49,256 bases of DNA from Gammaproteobacteria bacterium. GTDB lineage: Bacteria; Pseudomonadota; Gammaproteobacteria; SZUA-229. The notes beneath the pieces were generated by a model. The model searched no databases and was not told where the DNA came from. It was given only the letters and a program-made list of their open reading frames with translations. The DNA lies in NCBI GenBank assembly GCA_026195895.1, contig JAPHRO010000037.1, forward strand, positions 1-49,256. The letters are read 5' to 3'. A program made the translations under genes and the position numbers. Below, in pieces: positions 29,364 through 35,592 of the stretch (positions within the stretch are counted from its first letter, which is position 1; every line of letters starts with the position of its first letter).

Positions 29364-30878
29364 ATGTGCGGTATTGTCGGTATTGTTGGCCGAGGCCCTG
29401 TCAATCAGTTGTTATACGACGCTCTGACTTTGTTACAGCATCGCGGCCAGGACGCTGCAGGAATTGTGAGCTGTGATGGTAACAAGTTTTATTTACGCAA
29501 GAACAATGGACTGGTCAGCGACGTTTTTCGTACCGAACATATGGTGCAGTTGATGGGTAATATGGGCATCGGTCATGTGCGTTATCCCACGGCAGGCTGT
29601 TCATCATCGGCGGAAGCACAGCCCTTCTATGTGAATTCTCCCTATGGTATTGCCATGGCGCATAATGGCAACCTGACCAATGCGGATGAATTAAAAGATC
29701 AGCTTTATAAAGATGATTTGCGGCATATTAATACCGAGTCCGATTCAGAAGTTCTGTTGAATATTTTTGCCCATGAATTGCAAATTCAGAACAAGCTCGA
29801 AGTTACCGAAAAAGAAATTTTTACCGCCGTCAGCGCGGTACATAAACGCTGTCGTGGTGGTTATGCGGTTGTCGCAACTATTGTTGGAAAAGGAGTGTTT
29901 GCTTTCCGTGATCCTTTTGGTATTCGCCCAATTGTTTATGGTAAACGGGAAACGAAAAAAGGCACTGAATACATGGTGGCATCCGAGAGTGTCGCCCTGC
30001 ATGCGCTGGGTTTCGATCTGGTCAGAGATATCTCGCCAGGTGAAGCAATCTTTATTGATGCTGATGGTAATCTCCATACCCAGCAATGTGCGGAACATCC
30101 ACGAAGCCATCCCTGTATATTTGAATACGTCTATTTTGCGCGTCCCGACTCCATTATTGATAACGTATCGGTTTATAAAGCGCGTCTGCGTATGGGGCAG
30201 AATCTGGTGGCGAAATTACTGCGTCAGATGCCGGATCACGATATTGATGTGGTCATACCTATTCCCGATACCAGTCGAACCTCAGCATTAGAAGTTGCCT
30301 ATCATCTCGGGGTGAAGTACCGGGAAGGCTTTATCAAGAATCGTTATATTGGGCGTACCTTTATTATGCCGGGTCAGAAGCAGCGCAAAAAATCAGTGCG
30401 CCAGAAACTGAATGCGATTGACCTGGAATTCAAAAATAAAACAGTGCTTCTGGTCGATGACTCTATTGTCCGTGGCACGACTTCAAAACAGATTATTCAG
30501 ATGGCCAGGGAAGCCGGCGCCAAAAAAGTTTATATGGCATCGGCGGCGCCAGCCGTTCGTTTTCCTAACGTATATGGTATCGATATGCCCTCGCCAAAAG
30601 AGTTCGTTGCCGATAATCGTACGGATGAAGAAATCGCCAGGGAAATTGGCGCTGACTGGCTAATTTATCAGGATCTGGATGACCTGATTGATGCAGTGCA
30701 CAAGGGAAATATTTCCATTAGCAGTTATGATTGTTCCTGCTTCGATGGTAAATATATTACCAATGATGTCGATGATGCTTATTTTGCACACATCGATAAA
30801 TTACGTTCCGATGCGTCAAAAAGCAAACGAGAACATGCAGATAATCTGGCCGGTATCGATCTGTACAGCAGTCAGTAA
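29364..30878 (+). CDS. purF: Amidophosphoribosyltransferase
   Basis: PurF makes 5-phosphoribosylamine from PRPP and glutamine, the first step of purine synthesis. I use ATG 29364 because removal of Met exposes the nucleophile Cys (MCGIVGIVG) and GAGG lies 5 bases upstream; an upstream start in the same frame would bury the cysteine. The 504-residue protein has an N-terminal Ntn glutaminase domain and a phosphoribosyltransferase domain with the PRPP motif [14 protein letters not shown]. The E. coli-type form lacks the iron-sulfur ligands of the Bacillus enzyme. Confidence 0.97.
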
Positions 30879-30880
30879 TT

Positions 30881-31759
30881 ATGGGATTGAAAAATACAAA
30901 TTACAGCGTGCAATTTTTTGCCACTTTAGTTTTATTGTTTAGTTCGATTATTGCAGTAGCTAAAGACGCTGCGCCGGTCGACGACTATCAACAGTTTAAA
31001 CAGGCGGTGACCTTGAGTCAGCAGGGGAGCTGGCAACAGGCAGCAGAAATTTTTGCAGCCATTGCCGAGCGCAACCCGTCCTGGCCCGAGCCCAAAAATA
31101 ATCTGGCCGTTAGTCAATTAAATATGGGACAGGTGGAGCAGGCGAAATATGCGCTCGAATCCGCAGTCACCAGTTTGCCCAGTTTTAAAACTGCCCAGGA
31201 TAATCGCCAGCGACTTTATGATCATCTTGCCGCAGTGGCTTACAGCAAGGCACTGGGGATAGAAGAAAAGCAAAAACTTCCCGCTTTGGATTTGTTAACT
31301 GAAATTAAGCTTGCCGAGAAACCCAAACCAGAACAGCTTGTGGTAGAGAAAATCGTTGAAGTACCTGTGACTGCCATTGCTTCGGACGATTCTGATGTTG
31401 ATCACGTAAATAAAATCAGGCAGGGTTTGTTGAGCTGGTCCAGTGCCTGGTCGCAGGCGGATACTGATAATTATTTGTCCGCATATTCCACTCGTTTTCA
31501 GCCATCTGATCAGAGAAAAGACTATACTCAATGGCGTAACATACGCCGTGCTCGTTTGAAATCATCCAGTAGCACACAGGTTGAGCTGGAGAATATCAAG
31601 GTGTATCTGGATACTGACAATAGCCAGGCGCTGACCGAGTTTATCCAGCACTATAAATCGGCCAGTTATCAGGATAAGGTGCTCAAACAAATGCATCTGG
31701 CACTGGAGAATGGCCAGTGGTTAATTTTGTCGGAACGCGTGATACAGCAGTTAGATTAA
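30881..31759 (+). CDS. Exported TPR protein with NTF2-like (Csd6-type) C-terminal domain
   Basis: This 292-residue protein begins 2 bp after purF. It has an N-terminal signal peptide (hydrophobic core FFATLVLLFSSIIAV, cleavage after AVA or nearby), a helical TPR-like repeat (about 35-115, with NPSWPEPKNNLAVSQLNMG) and a linker. The C-terminal domain (about 177-290) begins IRQGLLSWSSAWSQAD and shares a pattern of W, YLS-YS, D, W and R residues with the C-terminal domain of the next protein. That domain resembles the NTF2-like tail of Csd6, an L,D-carboxypeptidase. There is no YkuD catalytic domain here, so I infer a non-catalytic periplasmic partner that binds the same ligand or a cell-wall target. 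No assigned function. Confidence 0.75.
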   Translation: MGLKNTNYSVQFFATLVLLFSSIIAVAKDAAPVDDYQQFKQAVTLSQQGSWQQAAEIFAAIAERNPSWPEPKNNLAVSQLNMGQVEQAKYALESAVTSLPSFKTAQDNRQRLYDHLAAVAYSKALGIEEKQKLPALDLLTEIKLAEKPKPEQLVVEKIVEVPVTAIASDDSDVDHVNKIRQGLLSWSSAWSQADTDNYLSAYSTRFQPSDQRKDYTQWRNIRRARLKSSSSTQVELENIKVYLDTDNSQALTEFIQHYKSASYQDKVLKQMHLALENGQWLILSERVIQQLD

Positions 31760-31761
31760 TT

Positions 31762-32967
31762 ATGGTAAGACTACTCACTTACATCTGTTTTTTAATTACA
31801 TTGATAGCTGGCCATTCAGTATATGCCAGTCAGCGTCCAGAGCAGCGTCTCCTCGATGCTCTGCAGCTCATTCAATCCGCGCAACCTGCCAGAGCTGAAC
31901 AGCTACTAAAAAATCTTATTGATGATGAGCCGGAATTCAAGCTGGCGCATATGCTGTATGCTGATTTACTGAAAGCCAGAACCGGGCCACTTGATCATGC
32001 CGGTATGGGATTGTCTGCCGATGAAGAATTACAGCAGTTGTTGACTGAAGTTAAAAAACGCTGGCAGGCCAGTTTGCTGGAAGTTGATGAGCAAAATAAA
32101 ATACCCGCTGTATTGACCCGGCTGGATGATAATTATTTCCATGCGATTGCCGTCGATTTAAAACAGTCGCGACTGTTTGTTTTCGAAAATTACAATGGTT
32201 ATCCAAAACAGGTCGACGACTTTTTTATATCTATGGGGCGAGGTGGCCCGAAGAAGCAGAAAGAGGGTGACCTGAGAACACCGCTGGGTGTGTATTTTGT
32301 GCAATCCTATATTCCACCGCAGAAACTTGCCGATAAGTATGGCTCTGGTGCCTATCCGATCAATTATCCTAATGCCTGGGATTTGTTCAAAGGACGCACT
32401 GGTAATGGTATCTGGTTACATGGCACGCGCAGTGGAACCTACAATCGTCCGCCACTGGCATCGGAAGGCTGCGTGGTTCTGCCAAATGACGATTTGCTGG
32501 AAGTCGGTTCCTATATCAATCTGGCACAAACACCGGTACTTATTGGCTACGATTTAAAATGGTTGAGTCGGGAACAATGGCAGGCACAGAAACAGCAGGT
32601 GTCCGATATTTTCAACCAGTGGGTGGCGGATTGGCAAAGCCTGAATACGGAAAGCTATTTGAGTCATTATTCAAAAGATTTTAGTAATGGAAAAAAAGAC
32701 TTTAATCACTGGGTAGCGCATAAGCGCAGAGTCGCACAGCACAAAACATTTGTGGAAGTGGAAGCATCCGATGTAAGTTTGTTAATGCATCCAAATGAAG
32801 ATGTTCTGGTCGCGACTTTTAACCAGAAATATGCCAGTGATAATTACCGTAGTCAGTCATGGAAGCGCCAGTACTGGCACAAAGAAGATGATGGCAAATG
32901 GCGAATTATTTTTGAAGGTGAAATTTCTGCGCCAGCAACTCCGCAATTAGCAAAGCGTTCACTCTAA
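31762..32967 (+). CDS. Exported YkuD L,D-transpeptidase-fold protein with NTF2-like tail (Csd6/Pgp2-like)
   Basis: ATG 31762 gives 401 residues with a signal peptide (to about YAS, residue 23). Residues 24-115 are helical. The YkuD domain spans about 126-262, with H220 in WLHGT and the nucleophile C237 in SEGCVVLPN, the two residues used to acylate and attack peptidoglycan stem peptides. The C-terminal domain (about 280-390) is NTF2-like and shares its pattern with the preceding gene. The YkuD plus NTF2 architecture is that of Helicobacter Csd6 and Campylobacter Pgp2, which act as L,D-carboxypeptidases that trim tetrapeptides and set helical shape; an L,D-transpeptidase role is also possible. 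The 3' end overlaps the carboxypeptidase gene on the other strand by 9 bp. Confidence 0.88.
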   Translation: MVRLLTYICFLITLIAGHSVYASQRPEQRLLDALQLIQSAQPARAEQLLKNLIDDEPEFKLAHMLYADLLKARTGPLDHAGMGLSADEELQQLLTEVKKRWQASLLEVDEQNKIPAVLTRLDDNYFHAIAVDLKQSRLFVFENYNGYPKQVDDFFISMGRGGPKKQKEGDLRTPLGVYFVQSYIPPQKLADKYGSGAYPINYPNAWDLFKGRTGNGIWLHGTRSGTYNRPPLASEGCVVLPNDDLLEVGSYINLAQTPVLIGYDLKWLSREQWQAQKQQVSDIFNQWVADWQSLNTESYLSHYSKDFSNGKKDFNHWVAHKRRVAQHKTFVEVEASDVSLLMHPNEDVLVATFNQKYASDNYRSQSWKRQYWHKEDDGKWRIIFEGEISAPATPQLAKRSL

Positions 32968-33861
32968 CTGTTTATGTCGAGCTATACTTTCCGTTGATGA
33001 GTTAAGTGGCTCAAGGCCATTTGTTCTCGGAATGTTTCTTTTTAGCCAGCCCACCATATCGATCCATATGCGTGATATTTCCTGCTTGCTCGGCATGATG
33101 CCAGCATAGGGAAGTTCTACCGTTATCACGGGTATGTTCAATTGCTCGCCGGCAAAATTACCCAGTGACCCGGGATAAGTGCCTAACAGATTCAGGTACA
33201 GTGGCCCCAGATTTTTTGGTGGATGCGGTGGGCCATCAAAATCAACAATACCAAAGGGCGCGTGAACAGACACAATCGCGTCGGGTTTGAACTCATTAAT
33301 GAGCTGATACACCCATTGGGTCTCCGATTCGGACAGAGGCTCAGTACCGGGGTATTTGCGGGCATTGCTCCAGGCTTTTGTTTTCCAGAAGTCGAGGCTG
33401 GCATTTGCACTGCTTCCATTTGGAAAATTGCGGTTAAGATCTACGCCATTGGCGTTCATGCGCTGGGATTTTCTTTGTAATAAGCCGTCAGGGTTAACCA
33501 GGGGCGCAACTTTCCAGTGGAAAAGACCACTGTGATATTTATCCAGAATAGCCATCCATTTGAACATGATTGTTACCGAAGAATATTCGTCACCATGAAT
33601 ACCGCCGAGCATAAGAATGCGCGCCTGTGGTTGGCGTTGATTTAATGGCGGGTATTCTTTAATCAGTAATGCAGACTGTTTTTCCGAATGAAATCCCGAA
33701 GTGATCAGCTTTCGATCAAGGCATTCTGTAAGTGTGACGCTGGACAGTTTTTTGGCAATGCGATGACATTCATCGGTTGCCTGGTTGGCCAGCGATGTTG
33801 AACAAGCCAACATAAATGTGAGCCGGCACAGAAAGCTGAATAGATGTTTGGTAATAGTCAC
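32959..33861 (-). CDS. Exported M14-family zinc carboxypeptidase (murein peptidase-like)
   Basis: This 300-residue protein has a signal peptide (cleavage after SLA, about residue 25). The M14 zinc ligands are H89 and E92 in GGIHGDEYSSV and H200 in SVHAP, with catalytic E249 in TVELPY. NPDG (123-126) and NRNFP (143-147) are the usual substrate-binding motifs. The GIHGDE form is closest to MpaA- and Csd4-type peptidases, which cut at diaminopimelate in muropeptides. Convergent with the YkuD-NTF2 gene and divergent from a second YkuD gene, it sits inside a cell-wall set, so peptidoglycan stem peptide or recycled muropeptide is the likely substrate. A periplasmic location favours a Csd4-like role over cytoplasmic MpaA-like recycling. 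Confidence 0.88.
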   Translation of the reverse strand: MTITKHLFSFLCRLTFMLACSTSLANQATDECHRIAKKLSSVTLTECLDRKLITSGFHSEKQSALLIKEYPPLNQRQPQARILMLGGIHGDEYSSVTIMFKWMAILDKYHSGLFHWKVAPLVNPDGLLQRKSQRMNANGVDLNRNFPNGSSANASLDFWKTKAWSNARKYPGTEPLSESETQWVYQLINEFKPDAIVSVHAPFGIVDFDGPPHPPKNLGPLYLNLLGTYPGSLGNFAGEQLNIPVITVELPYAGIMPSKQEISRIWIDMVGWLKRNIPRTNGLEPLNSSTESIARHKQLE

Positions 33862-33907: not shown

Positions 33908-34390
33908 ATGACTCGGCAAGTAAAATTGCAGATAGATGTAGCATGTCAGCAAATGACCGTGCTAGATGATCAGGGCAATATTTTAAAGCAATATCCTGTG
34001 TCCACATCCCGCTATGGAACTGGCAGTGAACACGGCAGTTTTAAAACGCCCCTGGGTCAACATTGTATAAAAGAAAAAATCGGCGATGGTGAGCCAGTTA
34101 ATCAGGTGTTTGTTGGTCGGCAAGCTATTGGTGTGCTGGGCGAGCTTGATGCCGAAAATTTGCCGGAAGATATTATTACCAGTCGCATCCTGCGACTAGA
34201 GGGGCAGGATAAAGGTGTCAACCAGGGAGGTACTGTAGACAGTTATCAACGCTACATTTATATTCATGGCACGGATGAAGAAAACAAAATAGGTACACCC
34301 GCATCCCATGGGTGTATTCGAATGCGCAATAAAGATGTGATCGAATTATTTGATCTTGTAGAACCGGGTTGTCCGGTAATTATTGAATAG
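33908..34390 (+). CDS. Leaderless L,D-transpeptidase (YkuD) family protein
   Basis: This small YkuD protein is about 160 residues from ATG 33908 (165 from TTG 33893; both have a GGA-type site upstream). It is a single YkuD domain with HGT and SHGCIRM motifs, the histidine 16 residues before the catalytic cysteine. There is no signal peptide or membrane segment, unlike most periplasmic L,D-transpeptidases. Only 31-46 bp separate its start from that of the divergent carboxypeptidase, so promoters must overlap coding sequence or each other. metZ follows 8 bp later, suggesting cotranscription. Related leaderless proteins occur in Pseudomonas-like genomes; their location and role are unclear to me. 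Confidence 0.85.
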   Translation: MTRQVKLQIDVACQQMTVLDDQGNILKQYPVSTSRYGTGSEHGSFKTPLGQHCIKEKIGDGEPVNQVFVGRQAIGVLGELDAENLPEDIITSRILRLEGQDKGVNQGGTVDSYQRYIYIHGTDEENKIGTPASHGCIRMRNKDVIELFDLVEPGCPVIIE

Positions 34391-34398
34391 GAAGGGCG

Positions 34399-35592
34399 AT
34401 GAGTGATTTTGATGACATAGATTTTGATGAGCCGCCGGGTTTTGATACAAGAGCTGTTCGTGCGGGTCAAATACGCACCCATGAAAACGAACACAGTGAA
34501 GCGATTTTTCCTACCTCCAGCTATGTGTTCAATTCTGCTGCCGAAGCGGCTGCACGATTTTCCGGGGAACAGCCGGGCAATATTTACTCGCGTTTTACCA
34601 ATCCGACGGTGCGCACGTTTGAACAGCGACTGGCTTCCCTGGAAGGTGCGGAATGTTGCGTGGCTACGGCATCAGGTATGTCAGCCATATTATCGACCTG
34701 TATCGGTTTATTAAAAACCGGTGACCATATTATTTCGTCACGCAGTATTTTTGGCACTACCACGGTACTGTTTACGAATTTTCTGGCCAGGCTGGGAATT
34801 GAAACAACGTTTGTTAATTTATCGGATCTGGATGACTGGAAGGCTGCGATACGTCCAGAGACAAAATTATTTTTTCTGGAAACGCCTTCGAATCCACTGA
34901 CCGAACTGGCCGATATAAAAGCGCTGGCGGTGCTGGCGCAGGAACACGATTGCCTGCTAGCGGTTGATAACTGTTTTTGTACACCGGCACTGCAGCGTCC
35001 CATCGAACTGGGTGCAGATATAGTGATTCACTCGGCAACAAAATATCTGGATGGTCAGGGGCGTTGCATGGGGGGAGCAGTCTTGGGTAGGCAAGATATT
35101 GTGGGTACTGATGTTTATGGCTTTTTACGTACTGCTGGTCCTAGTATGAGTCCGTTCAACGCCTGGGTGTTTTTGAAAGGACTGGAAACCTTGCAACTCA
35201 GAATGAAAGCCCATACGGCAAATGCACTGGAGTTGGCGCAATGGCTGGAACAACAGGATTGTGTAAAGCGTGTGTACTATCCCGGACTTGAAAGTCATCC
35301 GCAGCATGAACTGGCTAAAACCCAGCAACTGGGCTTTGGTGGCCTGCTGTCATTTGAATTGAAGGGCGGCAAGGAAGAAGGCTGGAAACTGGTTGATGCG
35401 ACTCGGATAGTTTCCATTACTGCCAACCTGGGTGATACCAAAACCACCATTACCCATCCGGCGACCACGACCCATGGTCGATTGACGCCAGAACAAAAAC
35501 AGGAAGCCGGCATTTCAGATGGGCTTATTCGTGTGGCGGTCGGGTTAGAGGATATCGATGATCTGAAAAAAGATTTATCCCGGGGCATGTAG
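34399..35592 (+). CDS. metZ: O-succinylhomoserine sulfhydrylase
   Basis: MetZ makes homocysteine directly from O-succinylhomoserine and sulfide, bypassing cystathionine. The 397-residue Cys/Met-metabolism PLP enzyme has the PLP lysine K215 in HSATKYLDGQG and the N-terminal YSRFTNPTV motif that contacts PLP phosphate of the neighbouring subunit. Position downstream of purF (here with the cell-wall cassette between) matches Pseudomonas, where purF and metZ are adjacent; that context is why I choose MetZ over MetB or MetC. Direct sulfhydrylation fits an organism with sulfide at hand. Confidence 0.92.
   Translation: MSDFDDIDFDEPPGFDTRAVRAGQIRTHENEHSEAIFPTSSYVFNSAAEAAARFSGEQPGNIYSRFTNPTVRTFEQRLASLEGAECCVATASGMSAILSTCIGLLKTGDHIISSRSIFGTTTVLFTNFLARLGIETTFVNLSDLDDWKAAIRPETKLFFLETPSNPLTELADIKALAVLAQEHDCLLAVDNCFCTPALQRPIELGADIVIHSATKYLDGQGRCMGGAVLGRQDIVGTDVYGFLRTAGPSMSPFNAWVFLKGLETLQLRMKAHTANALELAQWLEQQDCVKRVYYPGLESHPQHELAKTQQLGFGGLLSFELKGGKEEGWKLVDATRIVSITANLGDTKTTITHPATTTHGRLTPEQKQEAGISDGLIRVAVGLEDIDDLKKDLSRGM

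Follow-up and report, generated by a model that had tools for sequence, protein, structure and literature searches.

Three adjacent genes in the 31-34 kb region of the window, at positions 30881-33861, probably encode a two-step module for trimming peptidoglycan stems in the periplasm, together with a TPR-NTF2 partner that binds peptidoglycan. The window is the whole 49,256-nucleotide stretch of contig JAPHRO010000037.1 (Gammaproteobacteria bacterium, GCA_026195895.1), and the linked trio that it carries is widespread in gammaproteobacteria and unstudied there. The sequence supports the module through assignment to known families, conservation of catalytic and pocket residues, secretion signals judged by eye and linkage across families; that the two reactions follow one another, that the TPR protein acts as an adaptor and that cell shape is affected at all are inferences.

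Table 1. Genes of the trio and its flanks, in window coordinates
Feature	Position	Strand	Evidence and remarks
purF	29364..30878	+	Left boundary; ORF; position beside trio kept in relatives
TPR-NTF2 protein gene, 292 aa	30881..31759	+	Pfam Cds6_C and TPR_6; no catalytic domain
YkuD-NTF2 LD-carboxypeptidase gene, 401 aa	31762..32967	+	Pfam YkuD and Cds6_C; PDB phmmer Bd1075
M14 zinc peptidase gene, 300 aa, MpaA-type	32959..33861	-	Pfam M14; NCBIfam and PDB MpaA
ElsL-like YkuD gene	33908..34390	+	NCBIfam ElsL; between M14 gene and metZ
metZ	34399..35592	+	Right boundary; ORF; adjoins purF in outgroup families

The purF stop codon lies 2 bp ahead of the start of the TPR gene, so the two are likely to be co-transcribed. 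The LD-carboxypeptidase and M14 genes are convergent, and their stop ends share 9 bp (32959-32967), as the earlier note had described. Only two genes in the 3.33 Mb genome match YkuD, the YkuD-NTF2 gene and the ElsL-like gene, and the only M14 match is the trio member.

By its domains and conserved residues, the YkuD-NTF2 protein is a member of the Csd6/Pgp2/Bd1075 LD-carboxypeptidase family. Its open reading frame starts at ATG 31762; the numbering used in the alignments begins one codon later, so that H220 and C237 of the 401-aa protein appear there as H219 and C236. Pfam matched YkuD (3e-17) and Cds6_C (“Cds6 C-terminal NTF2-like domain”, 3e-24), both above the curated cut-offs, and the best phmmer match in the PDB was Bd1075 of Bdellovibrio bacteriovorus (7O21, 4e-38), with Csd6 of H. 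pylori (5e-22) and Pgp2 of C. jejuni (1e-21) behind it and alignments covering both domains. This bears out the earlier reading of a secreted YkuD protein with an NTF2-like tail, its residues H220 and C237 included, and places it with Csd6, Pgp2 and Bd1075 and not with YcbB/ErfK. The catalytic His-Gly-Cys triad (H220, G221, C237) is invariant in 138 of 138 homologues, as are K165, Y193 and W218, which PDB alignments map onto Csd6 Lys107 and the D-Ala pocket residues Tyr133 and Trp158; Y133, W158, H160, C176 and K107 of Csd6 are essential, or diagnostic of D-Ala carboxypeptidation (PMC4599014, PMC10653827). In addition, the Pgp2 NTF2 pocket residues Y233, F242, K257, K307 and E324, required for peptidoglycan trimming or binding (PMC8038945), correspond to Y299, F307, K321, K368 and E385, with conservation of 85 to 100%. 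Csd6 E110 and H155 are not strictly conserved among the homologues; the window protein has E and N at these places, and the H155 position also differs in Pgp2 and Bd1075 in the PDB alignments.

The window enzyme resembles Csd6 and Pgp2, whose genes are known for shaping helical cells, in its YkuD-NTF2 architecture, D-Ala pocket Tyr and Trp, catalytic H-G-C and NTF2 pocket; the N-terminal dimerisation domain is known from Csd6 and Pgp2. In the genomes of H. pylori and C. jejuni, csd6/pgp2 are located apart from csd4/pgp1. Bd1075 is an LD-carboxypeptidase whose NTF2 domain targets it to one cell face and which curves the cell; its gene is described as monocistronic and single, with no TPR-NTF2 partner or linked M14 gene in the available portion of that description (PMC8938487). 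PMC4398505 names Aeromonas AHA0618 as a Csd6 homologue; this smaller YkuD protein was not counted as evidence.

The TPR-NTF2 protein, secreted as judged by eye, is probably a peptidoglycan-binding partner without a catalytic domain. Pfam matches to Cds6_C (1.2e-17, above the curated cut-off) and TPR_6 (6.7e-7) confirm that a TPR protein carries the same NTF2-like tail, and in its structural model (pLDDT 88) the NTF2 part is matched best by Bd1075, Pgp2 and Csd6. Equivalents of Pgp2 Y233, K307 and E324 are kept, K257 is replaced by Arg, a Phe stands at the place of F242 (by eye), and the pocket residues are conserved across 121 homologues. No literature was found on a TPR-NTF2 partner.

The third protein is predicted to be a secreted, MpaA-type gamma-D-Glu-mDap (DL-)carboxypeptidase. 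Pfam detected M14 (9.7e-13), every metal and catalytic residue is present, and H89, E92, R134, N143, R144, H200 and E249 are conserved among homologues, four of which (H89, E92, H200, E249) had been read correctly from the sequence as those of a secreted M14 peptidase; signal-like N-terminal sequences were seen by eye in the homologues. Its designation as Csd4-like did not hold at the level of family and survives only in the predicted bond, which is that cut by Csd4. Profile searches of the PDB gave MpaA (5hxd, 3.6e-22; 4axv, 1.8e-20) against 0.53 for Csd4, MpaA was rank 1 in Foldseek, and the metal motif is HxxE in 51 of 51 homologues, whereas QxxE is strictly conserved in Csd4 homologues (PMC4220969). 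Csd4, of 438 aa, joins beta-barrel and Ig-like domains to its M14 domain (PMC4220969), both missing from the window protein, a single folded M14 domain whose residues 280-300 have very low model confidence. The Csd4 family label was thus rejected on motif, missing domains and profile score. The 50 entries listed by VIA-align for the M14 model include animal carboxypeptidases and carboxypeptidase T, with neither MpaA nor Csd4 among them.

The NCBIfam MpaA match (1.8e-22, 79.5 bits) falls below the equivalog cut-off of 157, which indicates a related subfamily and not MpaA itself. The HGDE and DLNR motifs and the active-site His and Glu are common to the window protein and MpaA (5HXD, 4AXV); the window protein differs in being apparently secreted, in an extra N-terminal region and in its linkage to a periplasmic LD-carboxypeptidase gene. 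MpaA of E. coli is cytoplasmic and acts on free tripeptide, so activity on the sacculus is a prediction for a secreted enzyme of the MpaA type. Csd4/Pgp1 is a secreted M14 enzyme, and for the M14 protein here we predict cleavage of that same bond once the LD-carboxypeptidase has acted; both MpaA and Pgp1/Csd4 convert tripeptides to dipeptides (PMC3310789, PMC4220969).

In the module that we propose, the LD-carboxypeptidase would take the terminal D-Ala off tetrapeptide stems, leaving tripeptides, and the convergently encoded M14 enzyme would take mDap off those that are uncrosslinked, leaving dipeptide stems unavailable for crosslinking. By its NTF2-like tail the LD-carboxypeptidase would bind peptidoglycan, and this tail would pick the trimming site. 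The TPR-NTF2 protein, with the same pocket, may also bind peptidoglycan, and its TPR part may dock the LD-carboxypeptidase or another envelope protein, making it a targeting or clustering partner.

Linkage was surveyed in 369 Gammaproteobacteria genomes. Cds6_C is carried by 33 of the 38 genomes with a trio-type M14 gene, compared with 60 of 369 overall (Fisher p 2e-25, in a test that ignores shared ancestry); this co-carriage spans 21 families, and the genes are adjacent in 25 of the 33. In 114 of 120 pairs the LD-carboxypeptidase gene is immediately preceded by the TPR gene on the same strand, and a 3' overlap of 19 or 22 bp between the convergent genes is conserved in many loci. In one family, M14 was found in 16 of 17 genomes with the LD-carboxypeptidase and in none of those without it. 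Of the loci that hold the TPR-LD-carboxypeptidase pair, about half have no M14 gene nearby, so the second trimming step would be optional. The trio occurs in purF-elsL, cvpA-folC, argC-bactofilin and ubiA/recG contexts with its gene order fixed and its ends often overlapping, and a bactofilin gene adjoins trio genes in three other families. Mirror distances (LD-carboxypeptidase with M14, r 0.86; with TPR, r 0.83) are no proof of partnership, because any co-inherited genes would give them. Carriers include lineages that NCBI classes as Betaproteobacteria.

The earlier note had the cassette put into a conserved purF-metZ order. Outgroup families do have purF and metZ side by side; an ElsL-like gene, however, also sits at this site in nearly all family members examined, and the trio was probably there early in the host's family and lost once, and not newly added to this genome. 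In relatives without the trio, no trio remnants were found in the purF-elsL gap, which holds other variable genes. The ElsL-like gene is a second YkuD gene that had been missed. Its best family match is NCBIfam ElsL (1.1e-42, 145.6 bits against an exception cut-off of 270), and its product, without a signal peptide by eye, resembles ElsL of Acinetobacter baumannii, a cytosolic recycling LD-carboxypeptidase (PMC8649774). The elsL-metZ adjacency is kept in the family whether the trio is present or absent, and ElsL is rarely near the trio outside the purF-elsL context. The gene is a neighbour of cell-wall recycling type that stands outside the mobile trio.

Other readings of these genes were weighed against the two-step module. 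It is unlikely that the M14 enzyme scavenges released murein tripeptides in the periplasm, in the manner of cytoplasmic MpaA, without editing the sacculus, leaving the LD-carboxypeptidase and TPR protein to act there alone. Its MpaA relatives, the closest that are solved, the ElsL-type recycling enzyme next door and the many genomes that have the pair without M14 favour such a role, but its gene co-occurs strongly with that of a sacculus LD-carboxypeptidase across 21 families and usually lies next to it in convergent orientation, which argues against this role, as does the scarcity of ElsL near the trio elsewhere. A chance neighbourhood in this genome is scarcely credible: the flanking gene sets do differ between families, yet the trio stays together in these unrelated contexts with its order and overlapping ends, and the linkage claimed earlier stands.

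For the YkuD-NTF2 protein, a DpaA/YafK-like amidase activity that detaches lipoprotein from peptidoglycan is very improbable. DpaA has the same fold, and NCBIfam gave a weak LdtF/DpaA/YafK match (2e-4, 20.5 bits against a cut-off of 365), but DpaA has Met at the D-Ala-pocket Trp of the carboxypeptidases (PMC10653827), whereas W218 and Y193 are invariant here. The window protein also has an NTF2 domain, which DpaA/YafK proteins lack, and the assembly holds no other YkuD gene able to be the LD-transpeptidase that attaches Lpp. An ordinary LD-transpeptidase forming 3-3 crosslinks, which the YkuD domain with intact His and Cys would allow, is more doubtful still, as its closest structures across the two domains come from three characterised LD-carboxypeptidases, and the C+2 residue is V, A, I, T or S in the 138 homologues and never the Arg that PMC8938487 gives as typical of transpeptidases.

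Trimming of the Csd6/Pgp2 type is familiar in helical Campylobacterota and in Bdellovibrio, and relatives of the LD-carboxypeptidase give Bdellovibrio, Helicobacter and Campylobacter cells their curved or coiled form. A role of the trio in shape is plausible. Most carriers are MAGs, and among the carriers are organisms normally regarded as straight rods. The spiral Methylospira mobilis reportedly has no csd genes (PMC6956133), so helicity and the LD-carboxypeptidase family need not coincide.

Finally, we tentatively suggest that the trio could be an unrecognised, widespread gammaproteobacterial morphogenesis module, in which a dedicated, peptidoglycan-binding TPR-NTF2 partner would site the LD-carboxypeptidase on the sacculus and a secreted trimmer of the MpaA type would act second. 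Working with bactofilin, a neighbour in several families, such a module might curve the wall or loosen it locally in bacteria that are not regarded as Csd users. The findings also suggest that the role of Csd4 has passed here to an enzyme of the MpaA type, in which case a two-step scheme would have come about with second enzymes of different kinds. Across Gammaproteobacteria, one cassette encodes this type of enzyme with its fixed partner and often an enzyme for the second step, and through the TPR-NTF2 gene the locus gives a single site at which to study how such enzymes are directed to a restricted region of the wall.

Four genes rather than three lie between purF and metZ in the window (see table). 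The earlier note had placed a three-gene Csd6/Csd4-like peptidoglycan-trimming cassette here; that gene set is present, and a fourth gene encodes a short YkuD protein resembling ElsL, the cytosolic recycling LD-carboxypeptidase. As gaps of just 2 bp separate purF from the TPR gene and the TPR gene from the larger YkuD gene, these three are likely carried on one transcript. Both NTF2-like tails matched a single Pfam family, Cds6_C (the Cds6 C-terminal NTF2-like domain), over its cut-off. Searching the whole assembly, estimated to be 99% complete, yielded these two Cds6_C domains only, a single M14 gene and the two YkuD genes alone, and thus no further YkuD-type LD-transpeptidase.

Genes of the purF-metZ interval and its flanks
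Feature	Position	Strand	Remark
purF	ends 30878		left flank of interval
TPR+NTF2 protein	30881-31759	+	
YkuD+NTF2 protein	31762-32967	+	LD-carboxypeptidase
M14 peptidase	32959-33861	-	
ElsL-like YkuD protein	33908-34390	+	short, no signal peptide, cytosolic type
metZ	34399-35592	+	directly after ElsL-like gene

The YkuD+NTF2 protein matched Bd1075 of Bdellovibrio (4e-38; structure 7O21, PMC10653827), Csd6 (5e-22) and Pgp2 (1e-21), each across both domains. In these alignments, K165, Y193 and W218 correspond to Csd6 K107, Y133 and W158, positions that tell D-Ala LD-carboxypeptidases from DpaA or transpeptidases, and all three are invariant across 138 homologues together with the catalytic residues H220, G221 and C237. 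The Pgp2 pocket residues Y233, F242, K257, K307 and E324, mutation of which harms helical shape or trimming (PMC8038945), correspond to Y299, F307, K321, K368 and E385, conserved at 85 to 100%. The position of Csd6 H155 is occupied by Asn, and Pgp2 and Bd1075 also lack that His. By nearly every sequence feature tested, this protein is a member of the Csd6/Pgp2/Bd1075 family, in agreement with the Csd6-like label.

The Csd4-like label did not hold for the M14 protein. Csd4 is defined by a QxxE motif and also has two domains beyond M14 (PMC4220969), all absent from the window protein, and profile searches favored MpaA (3.6e-22) over Csd4 (0.53), with E. coli MpaA also ranking first in Foldseek; Csd4 was therefore rejected as its identity. 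Because MpaA and Pgp1/Csd4 both convert tripeptides to dipeptides (PMC3310789), the M14 protein may nonetheless do the job of Csd4. Its metal and catalytic residues (H89, E92, H200, E249; R134, N143, R144) are kept throughout the homologue alignment with one exception. This copy (L161:5422-6375), from a genome with neither Cds6_C nor the LD-carboxypeptidase, has Lys where His200 would bind zinc, a change suggesting that the protein is decaying or has taken on a new role without the partner enzyme.

The TPR-NTF2 protein combines a signal-like N-terminus, TPR repeats and the second Cds6_C domain. The NTF2 part of its AlphaFold model (mean pLDDT 88) gave Bd1075, Pgp2 and Csd6 as first Foldseek matches, and a second structure comparison aligned Csd6 with Z 16.8 over 119 residues at 2.3 Å, other NTF2 folds following close behind. 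Each of its pocket residues W186, W190, Y198, K269 and E285, and likewise R222 where Pgp2 has K257, is shared by 118 to 121 of the 121 homologues. We infer a non-catalytic peptidoglycan-binding partner; a literature search for a TPR-NTF2 protein found no paper describing one.

Linkage of these genes extends beyond chance association in one genome, the outcome that the earlier note had set against its own reading. Among 369 Gammaproteobacteria, Cds6_C is present in 60 and M14 (over 200 bits) in 38; both occur in 33 genomes from 21 families (Fisher p 2e-25, not ancestry-corrected), adjacent in 25 of the 33. Of 120 pairs, 114 have the TPR gene immediately upstream of the LD-carboxypeptidase gene in the same orientation; in six Oceanospirillaceae-type loci it is downstream and convergent. 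In Amphritea, Neptuniibacter and Marinobacterium records (L249, L250, L256, L259, L265, L280), the downstream, convergent gene encodes a larger protein (about 500 aa). At 19 loci (including L207, L210, L215, L219-L222, L226, L229, L243-L246 and L248), the LD-carboxypeptidase and M14 genes converge with an overlap of exactly 19 or 22 bp, a fixed antisense arrangement in which, because the stop ends overlap, both proteins have their final residues (EGPA and AGPS) encoded by the same bases. Cds6_C is not confined to this class: further classes of the phylum have the family as well, frequently in a pair of adjacent genes as here.

Within the window's own family, the LD-carboxypeptidase was found in 17 of 49 genomes searched, and M14 in 16 of those 17 and no others. 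The ElsL-like gene adjoins metZ nearly everywhere in this family, with or without the trio (the TPR-NTF2, LD-carboxypeptidase and M14 genes). In the metZ tree, the 24 genomes lacking the trio group together in a single clade (SH-aLRT 98) that arises from within the carriers, which makes one loss within the family the simplest reading. The purF-elsL gap is a variable site, since trio-less family members hold other small genes there; those in L141, L142, L144 and L151 encode a secreted protein (about 230 aa) and a membrane protein (about 220 aa). No gene separates purF from metZ in outgroup families (L156, L162, L164-L167).

The genes shift between sites as a block: the trio lies between purF and elsL in the window's family, between cvpA and folC in L208, and between argC-DUF6776 and bactofilin-erpA in L219, L221, L222, L226 and L229, where L205 has the TPR-LD-carboxypeptidase pair only. 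Bactofilin was Pfam-confirmed in five of these last six loci. The DUF6776/bactofilin placement occurs in three families other than the window's, and the window's own genome keeps an intact argC-bactofilin-erpA cluster at another site without the trio. L234 likewise has an LD-carboxypeptidase and an ElsL-like gene in its purF-metZ interval, and the TPR-LD-carboxypeptidase pair is found 1 to 4 kb from metZ-purF in many betaproteobacterial records. As the bactofilin CcmA works with Csd proteins in Helicobacter, this neighborhood is suggestive of a link with the trio, not proof. A secreted bacterial SH3-domain protein recurrently adjoins the TPR or LD-carboxypeptidase gene (L205, L208, L209, L211, L217, L220, L222, L229, L258) and could be an additional member of the set.

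Among named organisms, the LD-carboxypeptidase occurs in records of Neptuniibacter, Amphritea, Marinobacterium, Aromatoleum, Pseudothauera, Gallionella and Sideroxydans, among others, and several named carriers are usually described as straight rods. A spiral methanotroph has been reported without csd genes (PMC6956133). Given both, gene presence alone is no basis for inferring a helical or curved shape. The gene observation of the earlier note is thus confirmed and its interpretation stands in part, with a Csd6-type LD-carboxypeptidase and without a Csd4; the most likely function of the trio is two-step periplasmic stem trimming with a targeting partner.
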